A stretch of DNA of 64,000 nt. It comes from Perkinsus marinus ATCC 50983 (Eukaryota > Perkinsozoa > Perkinsida > Perkinsidae). A program made the position numbers and the translations under genes. The DNA is taken from positions 166,856-230,855 of the forward strand of contig NW_003211646.1 in assembly GCF_000006405.1 (NCBI RefSeq), in the 5' to 3' direction. The notes under the pieces were generated by a model that saw nothing but the letters and a program-made list of their open reading frames with translations, had not been told where the DNA came from and made no database searches. Position 1 is the first letter of the stretch. The number at the start of each line of letters is the position of its first letter. Below, in pieces: positions 1,687-53,315 of the stretch.

Positions 1687-2894
1687 ACTGGAGTAGAGAT
1701 GGCAAGGCCTCTATCCACACAACTCGACAGGATGGCCAAACTCTCAGACGGCCACACTATGAGGATCTCTCTCGAACGCTAGGCGGGATTGCATTAACGA
1801 AGCTGAAGATGCCACACTAGGAGTTGATCGAATATCGAGCTCTCAGTACAGTCCGATTAAGTTTCACCCCTCGACCTAGCCACTAACGTTCAACGATGCC
1901 CCTTAGTCGTTCTAATTATTATCAATTTCATCGATACGATGCACGAAAACACACAACGCTAGCGCTAGACTACTAGTAGTACCCCTACAAGTAGCGTTCT
2001 CCACTAAGTAGCTACACACGAAAGAATACAGTCTCATATAAAAGAGGTGTGTTTGATACGACGCGTTGTTAGGATCTGATATGAATTACAAGGGCAGTAG
2101 TGAACGCGAACTAGGAGATGATGATGCCAGGGATCACTAGGGTTCTAGGAACATCCACTGAGGGGGGATTAGAAGGCCAGTTCATGAACTGAGACGATCA
2201 TACCTTATATCGCACTTGCAGCGGTTCGTATCCTACGAGGAGCTCATATGTGCGTGTTGTCAGGCTGATGTGGGGAAACTAATCTATTTGCTAACAATAA
2301 ATGCAAATAAGGCAGTTGTATTTCTCTCCGCTGTATCGTACCATAATGGCTATCGTAGCTAATGAGAATGAGAGTAAGGGTTCACAGAATAAGATGATCG
2401 TATACAGGAGATAGAGTTGTACTAGATTGTCCTAAAGTTTAAATCCAAAGACAACACGACGATTATAGGTGCGTAAAAAAGTCGTGAAACGATTAATCGA
2501 ATCGGATTTTTTCGCATGTTTTAAAACGGTCTTTGTGCATCAGCGGGCTTAGATCTTGAGCTTCGCATTCCCTGTCTTAGAAGTGCTTTCTGACATCATC
2601 CGCGATTCTGCCAAGTCTTTTAGAGGGATCTCCTGGGTGTCGAGAGCATCGAAATCCAAATTGATATCAAGCTCGAAAATATTTCGAGTTCTATTGACCT
2701 TTCTTCCCTAACAGCATGTAGTCCATGCTTATCGTCATCGGGTCGACCTTGTGATGGCCAGTGCCCTCGGTAGACTCTTGTTCCTGTGAACTATGGCGTA
2801 ATAGTATACGCTAACACCATCTCGTAGTGTATCCATTACTATCGCTTATCGGAGTACAAGTAAATGAATTGAAAGATCATTCGAGTAGGGCATA
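1687..2894. other. Intergenic region with one possible minus-strand terminal exon
   Basis: Mostly without coherent coding. On the minus strand about 2549-2707 there is a 52-codon open stretch ending in TAA, with an acidic hydrophobic pattern (FELDINLDFDALDTQEIPL). It begins right after an AG and could be a last exon, but I found no partner exon. It remains a weak candidate. Confidence 0.25.
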
Positions 2895-2966
2895 GTGGTC
2901 GTGTCAGTCAGTGTGAGTCACATCGTCGTTAGGAACTTCATCATAAGCAGTTCGATTGGCTTCACA

Positions 2967-4112
2967 ATGGCTTTGAATGATGATTTGTCATTAACATCAT
3001 GGGATAAGACAGAGGACCCGACTGTTGTCTTGGACCTCCCCTTCGACACCCCTACTACCCTACCACAGCCCCCATCGTCCCAAGGCCCGGGACTAGAGCT
3101 GCCTACCTCCCCTAGTGGGACTCTATCGACTTGTTCGTCAAGTGATGTTGCCTATGGTATGTCCTCACCTCCTTTTAGTGCCGTTCCCCCACTAAGTGCT
3201 CTAGAGGCCCCGAATGCTGCTCTTACTTCTACTCCTCAGCAAAGTGCCTCGGGCTTCCTAGGTGCTGGTCTCCCCTCTACGGGTTTGTCTACCGCGTTCG
3301 TCAACTCCCCGTCCGATAGCGTATTATCAACGATCGGCCAGGAGCCCGGACTCGATGCCTTGAGCCGTATAATAGCTGCCAGGTGTGTTGACCCACTCAC
3401 TCTGCCGCAGGCCGCTGTACAGGACTACAATGATGATGACCACAAACAACAGCAGCCGGCTCCAAAGAGGGCTAGAGCTGCGGAATCTCAGCAGTATGAT
3501 GGTGATGCTCTGTGGGGAAGTGGACTGACTGCTCCTAGTGCTGGTGGTAGCTTGCCTCCTCCTCCGACACAGCGTCCTACCTTACAGCAGAGTGGTGGTC
3601 TTAGCCCCTATATGATGCTGAATTCCATGCGTAAAAAGGAGTATGCTGCGCCCCCTGGGGTCTGGAAGAATTCAGGTGGGTACATCTCGACTGTATACGT
3701 GAATAAAAGGCGTGTTTATGGGCCTTTGCGGAAGACTTTGGCGGAGTCAGTTCGTGATAGGGAGGAAATGCTGATAGCCAAAGAGAACCATGCATCGGAA
3801 GAGGAGATACGAGAGTTGGTGGCAGCACTGAAGGGAATCAACGGTGGGGGAAGCTCACGGGCCTCTAGCAAGGGTCGAAAGCATCGTAAGCCTCGGAAGT
3901 CTAGTAAGACTAAAACCAATAGTACTACCACTACAACAACAACGAGTACTACTACCAGTAGTACAGGTAGCGAGGAAGGGCTGTTCCCCACTATTCCGGA
4001 GACCGATGCCGCCGGGCCGGCTATGGAGTTACCGTCCTTAGCGACTCGATTTCAGAATGAGAACTACTTTGGTGGTTTCTCACCAGATGCATTCGGATTC
4101 GCCCAATATTAG
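2967..4112 (+). CDS. AP2-like DNA-binding protein
   Basis: Single-exon gene of 381 residues from the ATG at 2967. An upstream in-frame ATG at 2895 would add 24 hydrophobic, atypical residues, so I prefer the later start. The N-terminal 200 residues are Pro/Ser/Thr-rich and resemble an activation region, followed by a Q-rich and basic stretch (HKQQQPAPKRARA). A compact domain follows, about residues 230-300: GVWKNSGGYISTVYVNKRRV, then a helix with REEMLIAKENHASEEE. The three-strand plus helix layout, with Trp and basic residues in the strands, resembles the AP2 domain of alveolate ApiAP2 factors. A Lys-rich linker and a poly-Thr run encoded by (ACT)n follow. Nuclear regulator is an inference. 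The AP2 call is a fold-level resemblance, not proven. Confidence 0.6.
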   Translation: MALNDDLSLTSWDKTEDPTVVLDLPFDTPTTLPQPPSSQGPGLELPTSPSGTLSTCSSSDVAYGMSSPPFSAVPPLSALEAPNAALTSTPQQSASGFLGAGLPSTGLSTAFVNSPSDSVLSTIGQEPGLDALSRIIAARCVDPLTLPQAAVQDYNDDDHKQQQPAPKRARAAESQQYDGDALWGSGLTAPSAGGSLPPPPTQRPTLQQSGGLSPYMMLNSMRKKEYAAPPGVWKNSGGYISTVYVNKRRVYGPLRKTLAESVRDREEMLIAKENHASEEEIRELVAALKGINGGGSSRASSKGRKHRKPRKSSKTKTNSTTTTTTTSTTTSSTGSEEGLFPTIPETDAAGPAMELPSLATRFQNENYFGGFSPDAFGFAQY

Positions 4113-23185: not shown

Positions 23186-24892
23186 ATGTTGTACTTACCA
23201 CTGTGGTTGGCTATAGCAGCGATAGCCATCGCCGACGCCAGACCTGTCGTGAGGGCAGCAGCAATCCAATACGCCTCGAAAGCCGTCATCACTGATCCTC
23301 CTCCTGCCAACTTGGCACGTGATCTGATCGGTCTCAGCAAGCTAGTCAATAACACGGCGAAAACAAGGCCTGATATAGTGGTGAGAATCTAGTCAGTTCG
23401 ATCATGGGCCGCCAAAAATACACCGCCTCGTTGTGGAATAGCTGGGGGCTTCTTCTCCACTTCATTGTATCAGGTCCTACCTGAGGCCTCACTGTGGGGT
23501 TGGATACTGGGCTACTACAATGGCACCGATGCAGGCGACCGAGCTGCCCGCCGTGCCGGGACCTTCATAGCCCATCACGGAGATATTCCCATCAACTGGA
23601 GTGAGCCTAGCTGTAGCTGGTCAAAACTCGATTGCCTAGAGTCTTCGCAGTGCGAGGATCCTCTGCCGTATCTCAGCTGTCTAGCTCGCCTTACTAACGT
23701 CACCCTAGTTGCTAACATCCTTCATAGGCCTACATCTGATGAGCAGTACAATACTGAAGTTGCATTCGGTCCTGATGGTGCCGTACTAGAATACTATCAT
23801 AAGTGGCATCTCTTCGGAGAGGCCCCTGCCTTAGACCAACCCGTAGCGAAGAAGCTCGGCGTGTTCGCGCTACCACAGAACCCTGCTGTAAAGGTTGGCT
23901 TGGTCGTATGCTACGACTTATTGTTCGTATCGAACCTCCTCGAGATGGTCAGAAGGCATGGTGTGTCCTTGATCGTATTCTCGACTTCATGGGCTTCGGC
24001 TTATCCATCGTATAATGTCGTTATGGAGCAACAGGCCATGGCCCGCTTCCTTGGAGTTGGTATGATCGCTGCTAACAACGCAGCAGCTTACAGCAACGGT
24101 GGTGGGCTATATGACGGTACTGGGCAGCCGATAGCAGTCTATATGGATCCTCGATCTTCTCGAGATGTCGTTCTCACCGGAGCTATCACTATCTTGCCGA
24201 GTGTCACACGCTCGACAGCTCCGCCTAGCGAGCTGAATCTATCAAACCCCCCTTCTCGAGTCCTTCGGCGGCCTATACGGTGTTCGCTAGGTACTCCTGA
24301 AATCACTGCCAAGTACAGCCTGGATGAATTCGACGGTGGATGCGACATAGCCGAGTTGAAGGCTGGTCGCCATCAGCTTCATGCCGTCAGTCCGAACAAG
24401 GCCATTGAGTGCAGAGCAACCTTCACTGTTACGAATCAGATTGGTGATGGTCATCACCTCAGCCGCGTGGCTCTCGTCGCCTTCGATCAAGGCTGGGTGT
24501 TCCCTCGAACGCCTGATGGTTGGAATGCCCGAGGATGCGCCCTGGTCAGCTGTCATCCTGGTAAGGCCGAGCCATGCAAGTACAGTATGCGAGCGGTGGG
24601 GCCCGACTTCACTATCAAGACTGGTCTCGAGCTGCATTCTGTCATCCACTCCTCAAGATGCTATCATGCGCCATTGGCGATGGTGGGCTACGGTACAGGA
24701 GGCGCCCAGTTGTTACAGACCGAGGAGATCGACGTTAGCAAAGGTGTCACTGGTGCGTCGTGGATGAGGATCAAACGATCACTCGTTGAACTATATAGTG
24801 TAGTTTTGTATGCTATACAGGAGAACAACGATCCTATCGAGGATCTGGTAGAAGCTGATGCTGAATTGATTGCCTATCCTATGTTATATTAA
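23186..24892 (+). CDS. Secreted carbon-nitrogen hydrolase, vanin/biotinidase type
   Basis: Two exons, 23186-23380 and 23474-24892, with a phase-0 intron of 93 nt; 537 residues, the usual size for vanin and biotinidase. A signal peptide covers residues 1-19 (MLYLPLWLAIAAIAIADA). Catalytic triad of the nitrilase superfamily: Glu in IVVLPEASLWG (at the exon junction), Lys in YYHKWHLFGE, Cys in GLVVCYDLLFVS. The domain continues with FSTSWASAYPSYNVVMEQQA and NNAAAYSNGGGLY. A C-terminal beta-rich domain follows, with several cysteines as in vanins. These enzymes cleave amides such as pantetheine or biocytin; the substrate here is unknown. Secretion or the secretory pathway is inferred from the signal peptide. 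Stop TAA 24890-24892. Confidence 0.9.
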
Positions 24893-45023: not shown

Positions 45024-45943
45024 GGTTAAGGTGAGAGAAAACACTAAAGCACGGCGATAAACCCCAAGTTAGAAGTGATGATGTACCTAGTTGTGCAACT
45101 TGCATATATAAAACTAATACGGAAATGGATATTGACGAATCCAAGTGCATGTCTGTAAATGCCTTGGGCGCGCGCCGCAGAATTATGGTCGCATGATGCG
45201 ATCATACTCCCGTCGTGCCGATCGGAGGAGTACGGAGTGATTTACGAATACTGAACAGCACGGAATGATGATAGCTGACGAGAAAGATTGGAATGCCATC
45301 CTGGGATGGATGACGGTTTCGCGTTGTCTAGTGACTAAGCCAGGAGGTCTATACCGAGATACAGAGGAGTGCGGACGGGTGTGCAAGGATGAACGCTAGC
45401 GGTTGGTGAATTGTGAATCTACTATGCTTGTATCCGGTAAGGATGCGGAGAAGTTTCGAGCTCTCATAAAAAGTGACACTGCTAGTTTGTGGTGGCGTGC
45501 ACGATAGCACGCAGGCGCAGTAGAAGACAGTGTGGCAATATAGTTGCTACTACACTGAAGTGCACCCTCCCGTAGCACACGGATCCAATAGGATGCAATG
45601 GGGAAGGCGTTAGCGTCATTGCACCACTCAGATGATGCTTCTTGAGGCATCTGAGCTTCAGTAAAATTTCTGCACATCGTGGGGGGTGTTGGGACTTCGC
45701 GGCGACGTGAATAGGCAATATTCCGGGAAGAAAATCTCAGGGTGATACCAATGGAGATGGTGAGCGTAAAATTAACAACGGTCAGTGTATAGAGTACCGT
45801 TGGGACGGATCTCTACCGGACAGCCTTCTGGCGCCACCCTGTAAGTTGTCGTTCCCTGAACCGTCGTATTATATGAGTCGTAGAGGATGCATGCTTAGCC
45901 TGATCCACTAGTCTGCAGGCGTTCGGGGATTCACCCTATCATA
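45024..45943. promoter_or_regulatory. Divergent intergenic region between PEX4 and PEX11
   Basis: The 920-bp gap between two head-to-head peroxisome genes probably contains both promoters. I see a GGCGCGCGCC palindrome near 45167-45176. No TATA-like element or known peroxisome-responsive motif is clear enough to name. Confidence 0.35.
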
Positions 45944-46869
45944 ATGGCTGCACCCTTCACTTCTCTTGTTCCGCATTTGAGCGTAGACCAGTTCTTAGTG
46001 CTATTGGATAAAACTGACTTTAAGGATAAGTCCTTCAAGATCCTGGGGGGTTTGAGCAAGCTCCAGGCGTTGGCGGGTCACCCTGCTGAGAAGGATCTTA
46101 TGGCCTTCGCTCGAGTGCTTTCTATGGCGAGGAAGTACATCAAGTTTGGTAAATCTCTGCAGAGTTACCGCCAGTTGGATGCCGAAGTTAAACCTGTCGG
46201 TGATCTTCCTGCGAGTTACGTTAAGTTCGAGGAGTGGGTCGACTTCGTACAGTTGCTTGTTGAAGACCTCAACACCCTACACAAGGGGAGGTTCTTGAAA
46301 GCTTTGGGTATCCCCAACATACCCAGATTAGATCGGCTCGAGGACCAAGCATGGTGGCTATGGAGCGGAGTAAGTTCCTGCCTGTTCGATTCCTCGACAT
46401 TTGAAGCATTTCTGGCGTCAAACATATCTATTGAGCATTTCAGCCATGAAACTCTGTTTTGGGAATTAATGCATTATCAAATCTCTATGATGGGTCTCCC
46501 TCAGTATCGCGATATCTCCTACCTAGATACATGTGTGTTCAGGTGGCTTGGGTTCTCTACTATGCGAAGTTCAAGGTGGCCCGTGAGAAGTGGTTGAAAG
46601 CGAAGTTGGACAGCTCGGATCCTAACGACGACGTTAAAGTGAAAGCCGCCTATGTTGCAATGATTATGCAGCTCTCGGCCCTGGTGAAGATCTCGTGCGA
46701 GTTCACCGAGTCAACGTTAGCGTTGGGGTATGTACCGATGTATCTCAAGATGAACTATCCGAAGGCTTTGAAAGTCCTTCAAGTACTGTGTTCATTGATG
46801 AGTGCGACAAGCTCCATGCATAAGCTGCTCATCAATCAACAAAAGCTCATGAGTAGTCGAAGCAAGTAA
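45944..46869 (+). CDS. PEX11: PEX11-family peroxisome elongation protein
   Basis: Two exons, 45944-46369 and 46543-46869 (phase-0 intron 173 nt with a strong GTAAGT donor), giving 250 residues, as for PEX11 (about 235-260). N-terminal features: QFLVLLDKTDFKDKSFKILG, matching the family's L-x-K-T-D-x-K-D-K region, then FARVLSMARKYIKFGKSLQS, the conserved amphipathic Arg/Lys helix that bends membranes. Middle: WWLWSG | VAWVLYYAKFKVAREKWLKA. C terminus: VLQVLCSLMSATSSMHKLLI, the glycine/serine-type hydrophobic end. PEX11 inserts in the peroxisomal membrane and drives elongation before fission. It lies head to head with PEX4. No peroxisomal N-terminal PTS2 is expected or seen. Confidence 0.85.
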
Positions 46870-48503: not shown

Positions 48504-51183
48504 ATGAACGAGCCGGCCAGGCTATCCCACATAGACGAGAGGCTTTTTCCATCTCTGAAACCCCTCTCAGGGAACGCCTTGGTTGGTGTCCTGATTCAGA
48601 GGAAGCGATCCACAACTAATGAGCTGACAACCCGTAGGGTTAGTCCTCGGTTTCAAATGAAAATTGGGGAGGTCATCCACCACTATGAAGATAGTGACCT
48701 TCTCATCGTCCAATACCGAGACGGCTCGCGGGAGGTGAGTCTGATGCATCCAACAACTTCACCCATGTTACGTCTCCTCTGCCTTCTCATTGCTTCCACC
48801 GGCTTCTCTACCAACCTTGAGCATGCTCGGGGGTGGCTTTGTCTCTCACTACTATCCCCTCGGTATCAGGTTCTCACTGAGCACGAGGTGAAGGAGTTCG
48901 CACTCCCTGGTAACGCCTACGTGATGATGGGGTATGACAAGCCCTCGCTCCGCACAAAACGAGGGAGCTCGTCGTCTACCGAAGCATCTGGCAAGCCGTC
49001 TGACGAGTCCCCATCTAAAGCAGTGTGAGTATCTCTTCATCGGGAGTTGACGTTGAAGCTAGACACATCGCATGTGCTGCGATGATTTTTACTTGACCGT
49101 ATAGGCGTTCCTCACGGGGGTCCGCCAGGCTGGCTTCTTCCTTACATTGACACTCTTTGATTCCTTCGTCCATGTCTCAGGATCGCTACCCCAGGGAATC
49201 CGAGGGTCGATAGCAAAGATAGAACACCACCCAACGTGGCGATGACTCCCAAGCCCTTGACGAGCTCAGCAACTGCGAGAGCATCTAGGCCGTCTAAGAA
49301 AAGAAAAACTTCAAGTCTCCCAACAGCACTTCTGGAGAGTGAGTATTATGAATCAATTGCTGTCCTCCTGGCCCTTGTGATTGGTCCTTGCCTGGAGGAT
49401 GTCCTTTCAGCGCCGGCTCGTAAGTCGTCTCCCTCGTCCTCTACGGGTCGTTCGGCAAGTCCACCGATCTTCTCGCCTGACTACAGCGGTTCGCCTGGGA
49501 CGGACATGCATGCTAATGACGAAGTGCAGATTCTCTCGCCTGCCGACGATGCAGAAATCGTCACACTGGAGGACGGCGATCCCGCGTTGTCTCGCGCAGG
49601 TGGGTTCAACCCTCACATGTTGCCCGTTGCCATATATCCGTTCCATAGGTGCCTTGAATTGTTACTACAATCCTCTGTTTGTGAAGCACATAGGTGTTGG
49701 TCCAGACACGGCTGGTCAATGGCTGAGGCACTCTATCTTGGCCTTGCGTCCCTCGATAAATACTGGTCGTGTGAGACTCATCACCAAACCGTCCGCTAGG
49801 GTCTCAATCAAGGACATTGCTGCCGTTGGTGTGCACTCTGAAGCATACCTGCAAGGCCTTGGTGCTGTTGACAAATGGCTCAAGGGGAAGTCTCATGAGC
49901 TGAAGAGAGAAGTCGTCCTCGACCTTTGTAGCGATGCTTGTCGAGACATAATGAAGCAGGCCACTGGCCGGAAATTGGGGCTTGCCCTCAGTCCCCGTGA
50001 GTGCATCATGGACCGCCACACTCTGGACGTCGGTCTCCTCTCATGCGGTATGATGAGAGACGCTCTTATCGAACTTCTCGGAAGACGTGACTGTTATGAT
50101 GGTGGTCGGTCAGAGCGTGCGCCGAAGTCGACACTTGTGCTCACCAGGACAACCGGTCATCAAGTTCCCGTCTTCCTGGGGCCTGAGGACGAGCGGGTTA
50201 TCTCTGAACACCTACGTTGTGAGTCGTGTGACCGATCAACAGATGAGAGCAAGATGCTCGTGTGTGACAATGATGCATGTCAGAGAGGCTATCATATTGG
50301 GTGCCTTTCTCCCCCTCTATCATCGGATGTTCTGAAGGACCCCAATTTCAGTGAGCAGCAGTGGTTTTGCCCTCACTGTGAAGGAAACATATTGCACGCT
50401 GACGAGGAGGAGTCGGACAGTGAGAGTGAGGCCGAAAATGAGCTACTTGCTTTGGACCTCGATCTCAACAAGCACGGTGGTCCAATGAACGTGAAGCCAG
50501 GGGACGAGGTCGCCTGTGGTGGACATTTCATCAACTCGGTTGCTTTTGCGATCAAGAGCGTTCGTGCATCCCGTAGGGTATCAAGGGTCGCGATCCTAGA
50601 CTTTGGTCTGTACCACGGCTGTGGCAACGAATGGTTGTTTTACCGAGATCCGAGTGTACTTACTATGTCCCTCCATCGTTATGGTAGAAATAGACGGGGA
50701 GAGACTATACTACCCGGTACGGGCTCCCACAAGAGACTCGGCGAGAAGTGTGCTCTCGGCAAGAATATCAATTTGGAGGTTCCCGCAGGCTGGGGTGATT
50801 TTGAGTACGTTTCCAGTGTCCGCGAGATTTTGATTCCAATTCTGCAGCAATATCGACCAGAAGCGATAGTTTTGGTGACAACCTTTGATACGTTGGATTC
50901 CAGCAATACTCAGCGTTGCTATTTGAGCAGAGATGCTGATTTGAAGCTCACGCCTGGTTTTTTCGAGTGGCTCCCATGGGCAATTAGAACTTCCTTGCCG
51001 GAAGCATCAGTCCTGGCCTCAGTGGAGGGTGGATATGATCCCTTGCGGATGGGTGAAGTTATGAGGTGTTTCTCGGCTGGTCTTGCGGGACCCACGGGGG
51101 GCAAAGGAGCACCCGTCGAGTTCGAGAAAGCGACCGAGGAAGCCCAAACTACTAGAGTAAGATTAATTCGTACAATGCGATAG
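48504..51183 (+). CDS. PHD-interrupted histone-deacetylase-fold protein, zinc ligands altered
   Basis: Three exons 48504-49024, 49181-49599, 49649-51183 (introns 156 and 49 nt, both in phase), 824 residues. The N-terminal part (1-173) is unrecognised. A Ser/Lys-rich linker then leads into a class II-like HDAC fold. Its landmarks are VGVHSEAYLQGLGAVDKWL, RTTGHQ (in place of RPPGHH), and a PHD finger at about 504-557 (CESC...CDNDACQRGYHIGC...CPHC). The fold resumes with GHFINSVAFAIKSV, then ILDFGLYHGCG at about 629-639, normally D-x-D-x-H-H-G. The Asp and His zinc ligands are Gly633 and Tyr635. The third ligand is Asp727 in TTFD; VEGGYDP follows. Likely an inactive reader or scaffold. An extra terminal exon is possible at about 51229-51345. 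Confidence 0.78.
50218..50382 (+). other. PHD finger inserted in the deacetylase fold
   Basis: Cys4-His-Cys3 spacing: CESCDRSTDESKMLVCDNDA, CQRGYHIGCLSPPL, then WFCPHC. The aromatic position before the last Cys pair (W-F-C) is kept. PHD fingers bind the histone H3 tail; lysine state cannot be told from sequence. It sits between the GHQ motif and the GHFINS segment of the deacetylase domain, not at an end. An acidic linker (DEEESDSESEAENE) follows. Confidence 0.88.
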
Positions 51184-53315
51184 TTTGTCATGGTTCGTAT
51201 GTTCTTAGGCCGATTGGGAGGCTCATGTGTCCCCTCAAGTACGGTTATATCGCTCAGCTGGATGGAAACTGGAGAGTCCATCTGCCAGCGGCGAAGGACG
51301 GAATTGACTTTCGTTCTCTTGCCTTCGATAGCCTAGCAGTGAAGTAGATATATGGGACAGTGCTCATAAGGCACCGTCTCCCTCTTTACCATTATATAAT
51401 ATTTTCCCGACGGATTTCACCCGTCATCAGACGTTACTTCTAAATCAAATGCCTAACCTCTTGCCTTCATCATCAACACACTGTCGACAATCTCTGTACT
51501 GTCTGACGTATAATATTTTGTTCAATACCAGCAAATGGATAATGTATGTGCCGACGCTCAAGCTAGACGCCAGCTCGAGTTTATAGTAGGTCAATTGTTG
51601 AGTCTGTTCGGCTAGATTTGTCTGATGGCTATACGCCGCGACAGGAGCATGGTTGGTGAATCTCCGCTGTTGAGTACAATGCACTATTCGCGAATCTATC
51701 TTTATACTCGCATTGACACTTGCATACGATATTCACCCATGATTGACACTTGCATATGATATTAACACGCTCACCTTACCGAGTCATCGGTATGAAACTG
51801 CCGTCGCCCATTGTTCAAACTATATCGTTTGGGTTTCCGGACCAACCTATCATTTAGCCAGTGGAGCACCAACTAGTTCGAGCATCCTCGTCAGGCGAAC
51901 CTGGAATTCCCATGATACACACCGCAAGAGGCGCTGGTACTGTCGCATGCTCTCTATCACCAACGCTGATTCATCATGCCGGGTGTATTCAACATAGTAG
52001 TCAACTGAGAAAACGCTGAAAATACGTCTGAAAACGGGCTCATCGATAAAGACCTGGGTTGATAGCACATTCATGGTGTGGCAAATTGTGCTGCCTTTAA
52101 AAGCATGCATATCTTGTAATTCGAGATCATCAGTCCCTCAAGTCAGGTCAGAGGTGCCGTGAACTGTTCTGAATGTGCTAATTACCCTTTGAGGAGGCAC
52201 TTTAGTGAAATGACTGTATCTTTTATTACGCCAAGTCTCACCCACCAGTGATGTAACATCACTGATGCTGTCACATAAAAGAGAAGTACAAAGTGATATA
52301 ACATTCTTCTTCGAACCACTCTTTCAGACTGGTTGCCCAGAAGGTCTTAGACTGCATAGAGTCGAGTCACAATCACCCCATTCATCAAGTTTAACGAATA
52401 ACGCAACAGACTATATCTTTGTAACCGTTGATGACTTATGAAAGAGACAGCAATGTTAGTAGCATAAAATGCCACCCCATACTTCAGCGTACACAATATC
52501 CAACGAAGACACGCCTTATACTCCGCAAAGCCACGGTTCAAGCAGCGAACAGAGAGAGACGACTAAGAAAATACTGGAATTGATGTCGATTATACTCCAG
52601 AGACATTTTCGTCAACCGATCAATGCGAGCGAGTCAGGCAAAACACCAAAATAGCATCAACATTACCGTGACCGCTACGCAAACCTATCCCAGTGCTTCT
52701 TCATCGAAGTAGCTACTCATAAGTTGCTTTCGTAGTAATAACTACCAGATGTTGGTAACACACGAGAGGATAACGCGGACTACAATATTATGGACGGATA
52801 GACCTCTTCAGAATCATCATCTTGACTCAGATCGAAACAAGAAATTATCGCGGCAAATATTATCGATACTCAAACACCATACAGTCCTGCCGATCATTTC
52901 GACTCAATAACCCTCGCACAATGAGATGATAAACGACGTCATTAGCGGCAGCAACAGTTGTCGATTTTGCATAGTAACGACAACAGACGTTCACGAAGAT
53001 GGGAGATAGAACACACTCATGATGACTGCTTAAGCTGGCAAACTGCCACGGTTCCTCAACAACACATATCATATCATCTACTAAGTTATAAAGGAGGAGT
53101 ATCTGATTGTTTTCAGTTACCCACTAGGAATCGCGTGTTGAACCTTAATAGCAGCAGCATTAGCAGCAGTACTGATAGCTTCATGGTCATCATAGAAATA
53201 CCACCAACGCGATCTCTCTAGAAGAAATACTACACTACAAGACCAGTGGAGTTGTATCATCATAGGTCCAATTGGCAACTGAGCTGCTGCAAATAGACCT
53301 TCATACAGAGGAATG
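51184..53315. other. Large intergenic region with one possible terminal exon
   Basis: About 51229-51345 an open stretch (KYGYIAQLDGNWRVHLPAAK, ending SLAVK plus stop) reads like a real exon and could be an alternative end of the deacetylase gene, but I found no donor in the needed phase. The rest (51.4-53.3 kb) is AT-rich with many stops and no gene. Confidence 0.35.

Follow-up and report, generated by a model that had tools for sequence, protein, structure and literature searches.

What does a deacetylase do once two of its three zinc ligands are gone and a PHD finger stands in the middle of its catalytic domain? The question is raised by a gene at 48504-51307 (+) of a 64,000-nucleotide stretch of the genome of Perkinsus marinus ATCC 50983, an oyster parasite (contig NW_003211646.1, positions 166,856 to 230,855; hereafter the window), for which a spliced model compared with related sequences gives six predicted exons and a protein of 779 amino acids (aa). 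We judge, with a probability of about two in three, that this gene encodes a pseudo-deacetylase, that is, a non-catalytic reader or scaffold for chromatin tails derived from PHD-interrupted class II-type deacetylases, a reading based on comparison of sequences.

A 755-aa spliced version of the protein matches the Pfam families Hist_deacetyl (PF00850; E 3.8e-30, 105.7 bits, cut-off 27.9) and PHD (PF00628; E 1e-8, 35.5 bits, cut-off 24), the former placing it by homology and by its arginase/deacetylase fold with the zinc-dependent histone deacetylases. The N-terminal half of the deacetylase domain (HDAC-N; 49649-50217, aa ~246-434), which ends shortly past the degenerate GHH motif, is not reported by Pfam but is delimited by alignments and by an AF2 structure model, which matches HDAC10, HDAC6 and HDAC7 in VIA-align from model residue 1 onwards. 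It is followed by the PHD finger (50218-50379, aa 435-488), in which a complete set of C4HC3 ligands can be read, an acidic linker (50380-50472, aa 489-519), and the C-terminal half (HDAC-C; 50521-51156, Hist_deacetyl match at aa 538-717), which is supported by the AF2 model and its fold matches. The linker is mostly modelled with low confidence, with a pLDDT of 31-43 in model blocks 251-290 (aa 496-535) and 74 in the preceding block. The finger therefore sits between the GHH and GFC motifs of a class II-type fold, and the view of the preliminary description that a complete PHD finger splits the domain from within is borne out by both Pfam matches and by the single open exon that carries them. 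The best solved matches to the finger among PDB sequences are those of ATXR5, UHRF1, PHF21A and KDM5A (best E 4.1e-7), all readers of the histone H3 N-terminus and, to our knowledge, all located outside any deacetylase domain. This likeness makes a reader function of the window protein plausible, and its finger is predicted to bind the H3 N-terminus. A Tudor-like segment (48654-48905, aa 51-89, split by the intron 48735-48869) near the N-terminus resembles PTM_DIR17_Tudor (PF21743; E 0.043, 14.1 bits, cut-off 27.2), and a basic PSKKRK stretch occurs in the linker.

The active site is altered at conserved motif positions. The motif DFGLYHG (50599-50619, aa 562-568) occupies the place of DxDxHHG, with G564 and Y566 replacing two zinc ligands, and TTGHQ (50149-50163, aa 412-416) is a degenerate GHH motif in which H415 is kept and Q416 breaks the histidine pair. 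Only the third ligand, D658, remains, within TTFDTLDSS (50878-50904, aa 655-663), where the conserved preceding Gly has become T656; the catalytic-type tyrosine Y707 is also kept in EGGYDP (51025-51042, aa 704-709). These columns were read in a 30-row alignment (A3) of the window exon with 5 of the 6 proteins from a first search, 15 of the 23 from a profile search and 9 of the 43 from a C-terminal search, P0009 and the rest being omitted. The family rows counted are P0007, P0008 and P0010-P0016; P0002, P0022, P0017 and P0018, in which some motifs are garbled or not reached, were left uncounted, as was P0009. The two DxDxH ligand columns hold D and H in all 16 other HDAC rows and in 9/9 family rows, and the second His of GHH is present in 16/16 and in the 8 of 8 family rows that reach the column. 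The loss of two ligands and the change from GHH to GHQ, as first described, thus stand out against intact motifs in every other readable row. Further changes are F536G, C537H and N569C. Of the columns conserved in both sets, 33 in all, eight differ in the window protein; all eight fall among the 21 motif columns and none among the 12 elsewhere (Fisher p 0.03, for a motif set picked afterwards). For five of the nine family rows, the departures number 0, 0, 1 and 1 of 33 and 0 of 27. The protein nevertheless keeps 85 of 123 family-invariant columns. As established for HDACs, losing an Asp and a His ligand should do away with zinc binding and with catalysis. Because both are missing, the window protein would hold no catalytic zinc and is inferred to perform no deacetylation.

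These residue numbers depend on a revised gene model. Splice-site reading and orthologue comparison give exons at 48504-48734, 48870-49024, 49181-49338, 49411-49599, 49649-51156 and 51209-51307; all five introns are GT..AG, and the coding part is open across 2.3 kb, with the frame 49381-51183 uninterrupted. The introns 48735-48869 and 49339-49410 are taken to be spliced out because both inserts are absent from the P. chesapeaki orthologue P0002 (FOL47_001144). The preliminary description had kept them in an 824-aa protein, so that its G633 and Y635 now become G564 and Y566 and the glutamine of the GHH site is Q416. That model also lacked the last exon, which begins ADWEAHVSPQVRLYRSAGW, follows a 52-base GT..AG intron (51157-51208) and runs to the stop at 51307. 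The spliced C-terminus, W...RSAGW, resembles by eye those of P0007, P0011, P0015 and P0016, and most likely represents the true end of the protein. An end at 51183 was rejected on this ground, and the other downstream frame could be reached only from a donor that creates a stop, from a GC donor or from one lying far upstream. A division into separate HDAC and PHD genes was likewise rejected: HDAC-N, PHD and HDAC-C share the one open exon 49649-51156.

The same architecture recurs in sister genes with intact active sites. In the P. marinus genome, a search recovered pieces of HDAC-N, PHD and HDAC-C, arranged as in the window gene, at C93, C88, C292 and C308. They represent two or more paralogues (C93 on one side, C88/C292/C308 on the other) in which HH and DVDVHHG are intact. 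The spliced C93 and C292 genes read CHHVP, LDVDVHHGNGNE, CGFDA and EGGY. P0007, annotated as a putative histone deacetylase of P. marinus, agrees with C93 across the aligned part, and its structure model (pLDDT 79.1, pTM 0.58) has three strand-rich N-terminal stretches ahead of the deacetylase part. Over 6108 bases C292 matches C88 without a difference (100%), and over 6501 bases it matches C308 at 99.9%, and the three may be one gene; the corresponding matches L022, L023 and L024 are near-identical blocks (99.9-100%, >6 kb) on different contigs with the same PHD-interrupted deacetylase, reflecting either recent duplication or assembly redundancy. While the window exon is intronless across HDAC-N, PHD and HDAC-C, C93 has 14 introns between its two flanking ones and shares many intron positions with C292, including one at DVD|VHHG, which suggests intron loss through cDNA in the window gene or intron gain in its sisters. 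The 5' flanking intron is in phase 1 in the window and phase 2 in C93, and the two are therefore not demonstrably the same intron. Elsewhere in the genome, a second deacetylase (L001) with intact RPPGHH and DFDVHHG, preceded by ankyrin-like repeats by eye, lies about 104 kb ahead of the start of the window on the contig that contains it, and two seemingly similar class I-like deacetylase matches (L027 and L028) with equal lengths, close scores and stops in the six-frame match are found on different contigs.

Homologue searches, which scored the 7996 candidates sharing most words, extended the family beyond P. marinus. The profile search returned 23 proteins: P0008, P0009, P0010, P0015, P0018 and P0022 from P. 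olseni; P0007, P0014, P0017 and P0001 from P. marinus, the last being the database record of the window protein itself; the environmental sequences P0011, P0012 and P0013 with a PHD finger and P0016 without one; and nine more distant HDACs. Intact PHD-interrupted members hence occur also in P. olseni and among the environmental sequences. P0016 has intact catalytic residues and a short Gly/His-rich linker at the PHD site, and may have lost the finger unless its gene model missed it. Among ten proteins scanned with Pfam, PTM_DIR17_Tudor exceeds its cut-off in P0013 only (29.7 vs 27.2), is weak (E 0.001 to 0.16) in P0017, P0011, P0016, the window protein, P0002 and P0007, and is not reported in P0010, P0019 and P0020. 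In trees of 28 rows (spliced C292 replacing P0014, P0015 and P0017, P0009 omitted, 6 and 5 of the 25 inner branches left open), the family rows form one clade with support of 99/99, or 99/98 without the PHD columns, and the window protein belongs to this proposed family by both its insertion site and its position in the clade. Together with P0002 and P0022 it forms one lineage (100/100) beside C93 plus C292, found in three species (P. marinus, P. chesapeaki and P. olseni); a Perkinsus-only grouping is weaker (90/82; 81/79). Since sister members carry the insertion with intact zinc ligands, the comparison separates PHD interruption and catalytic death as two events, and places the ligand loss as a change within one Perkinsus lineage. 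The earlier characterization, in which a chromatin reader rests on the scaffold of a dead deacetylase, accordingly holds for the dead site in a preserved fold, but not as an account of the architecture, which belongs to a wider family whose other readable members have intact zinc ligands.

Could the unusual active site be an artefact or a sign of decay? The codons GGT, TAC and CAA each lie one base from a ligand or His codon, as a sequencing, assembly or gene-model error would allow. However, such an error is very unlikely because eight conserved motif columns are changed within an open frame and Q416 is common to P. chesapeaki, and a mis-joining of genes is excluded by the shared exon. Decay of a pseudogene, with the active site lost for want of selection, is unlikely but fits some of the data. 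The dead lineage stands on a long stem (1.22 vs 0.51 and 0.66), and it seems to evolve more rapidly than the active C93 lineage. Between P. marinus and P. olseni, 70/117 HDAC-N residues are shared in the dead lineage (P0022, a truncated protein with a probably mis-joined end) and 125/161 in the C93 lineage (P0008; 286/355 over the rest). Against decay stand the 2.3 kb of open coding sequence with GT..AG introns, the retention of PHD ligands, fold residues and most family-invariant columns, and the N-terminal orthologues in two further Perkinsus species. Compared with P. chesapeaki P0002, moreover, the domains are better kept (Tudor-like segment 42/53, HDAC-N 127/191, and 39/52 over aa 1-52) than the linker (55/132).

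If the protein is functional, it need not be a reader of chromatin. A working hydrolase with an altered metal site or another chemistry would be consistent with the retention of D658, H415, Y707 and the fold, yet G564, Y566, Q416, F536G, C537H, N569C and G656T jointly alter the metal site and the pocket, and we know of no HDAC that works without its Asp and His ligands; this alternative is thus highly improbable, though less so than an error. The kinship with HDAC6 and HDAC10 would also suit a non-chromatin, perhaps cytoplasmic, binder of acyl substrates, which we regard as about as doubtful as decay, given the PHD finger and Tudor-like module of the family and the basic PSKKRK stretch.

Several observations nonetheless weigh against the pseudo-deacetylase reading. 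The alignment of the window PHD finger keeps one of the two acidic residues with which UHRF1 reads H3R2, and the Tudor match falls below its cut-off. Relative to P0022, conservation of the HDAC part barely exceeds that of the linker (70/117 vs 76/136), which, like the long stem, also fits relaxed constraint. Loss of the zinc ligands is readable in P. marinus only, as P0002 ends just past the first Cys of the finger and P0022 before GHQ; a C-terminal 334-aa query gave 43 matches among 1821 candidates, none besides P0001 above 39% identity and no other orthologue among them. For the family as a whole, the fingers of the C93 lineage score below the Pfam cut-off of 24 (P0007 13 bits, P0010 16.4), with all eight ligands present by eye, and P0014, the database model for C308, joins HHVPYR directly to LSLGFCF with the PHD exons omitted. 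P0017, the model of the near-identical C292, includes them, and the finger might in some transcripts of the sister genes be skipped.

Under the pseudo-deacetylase reading, the fold would have been kept as a support that anchors the PHD finger, together probably with the Tudor-like module, on chromatin, and the protein could recruit, compete with or temper its active sisters. The insertion site between HH and GFC corresponds to one of several loops that surround the active site. Because of this position and the H3-reader-like finger, the PHD in the intact sisters would bring the histone tail to the catalytic pocket. A bolder proposal, which we advance only tentatively and consider rather improbable, is that in Perkinsus the PHD-interrupted deacetylases have diverged into erasers and one dedicated non-catalytic partner, whose zinc-less pocket, with the finger in a neighbouring loop, would be kept as a composite binding site for H3 tails, whether acetylated or unmodified, and regulate the active sisters. 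Such a split would mean that a deacetylase domain has turned from eraser to reader. A reader module within the catalytic domain would couple tail reading to deacetylation in the intact sisters, and the dead copy would offer a natural comparison in which fold and reader are retained and the chemistry is lost.

The closest counterparts are the Perkinsus PHD-interrupted deacetylases such as P0007 and P0010 (a 'PHD-type domain-containing protein' of P. olseni), which share the HDAC-N/PHD/HDAC-C order and insertion site at 35-40% identity but have retained HH and DxDxH along with the third D. A further difference is the many introns that C93 and C292 have across the domain. The class II enzymes HDAC6, HDAC10, HDAC4 and HDAC7 have their zinc ligands and no PHD finger inside the domain. 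Vertebrate class IIa HDACs are weakly active and largely serve as scaffolds, and the window protein may work alike in using a deacetylase fold for binding; they lose the Tyr and keep zinc, whereas in the window protein the Tyr is retained and two ligands are gone. The literature searched on Perkinsus deacetylases, inactive HDACs and domain architecture, which covered few subscription journals, yielded no account of a PHD-interrupted deacetylase. A survey of domain counts in dinoflagellates and Perkinsus does not mention an HDAC-PHD combination in the places covered (PMC4751559), the part covered of a table of oomycete HDA proteins names no PHD in its eight rows (PMC4030286), and the passages covered of PMC7339932 do not describe such a protein.

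Other frames in the window include one of 407 aa at 2889-4109, in which an AP2-like stretch (YISTVYVNKRRVYGPLRKTLAE) can be recognized by eye and Pfam gives no match at 0.1. Just upstream of the gene, a PEX11-like frame lies at 45899-46869 (PF05648, 9e-5, 22.5 bits, cut-off 23.8, for the scanned part 45899-46594), with a second exon to 46869 recognized by eye. At 23393-24889, a carbon-nitrogen hydrolase frame (PF00795, 3.6e-13) is vanin/biotinidase-like by eye.
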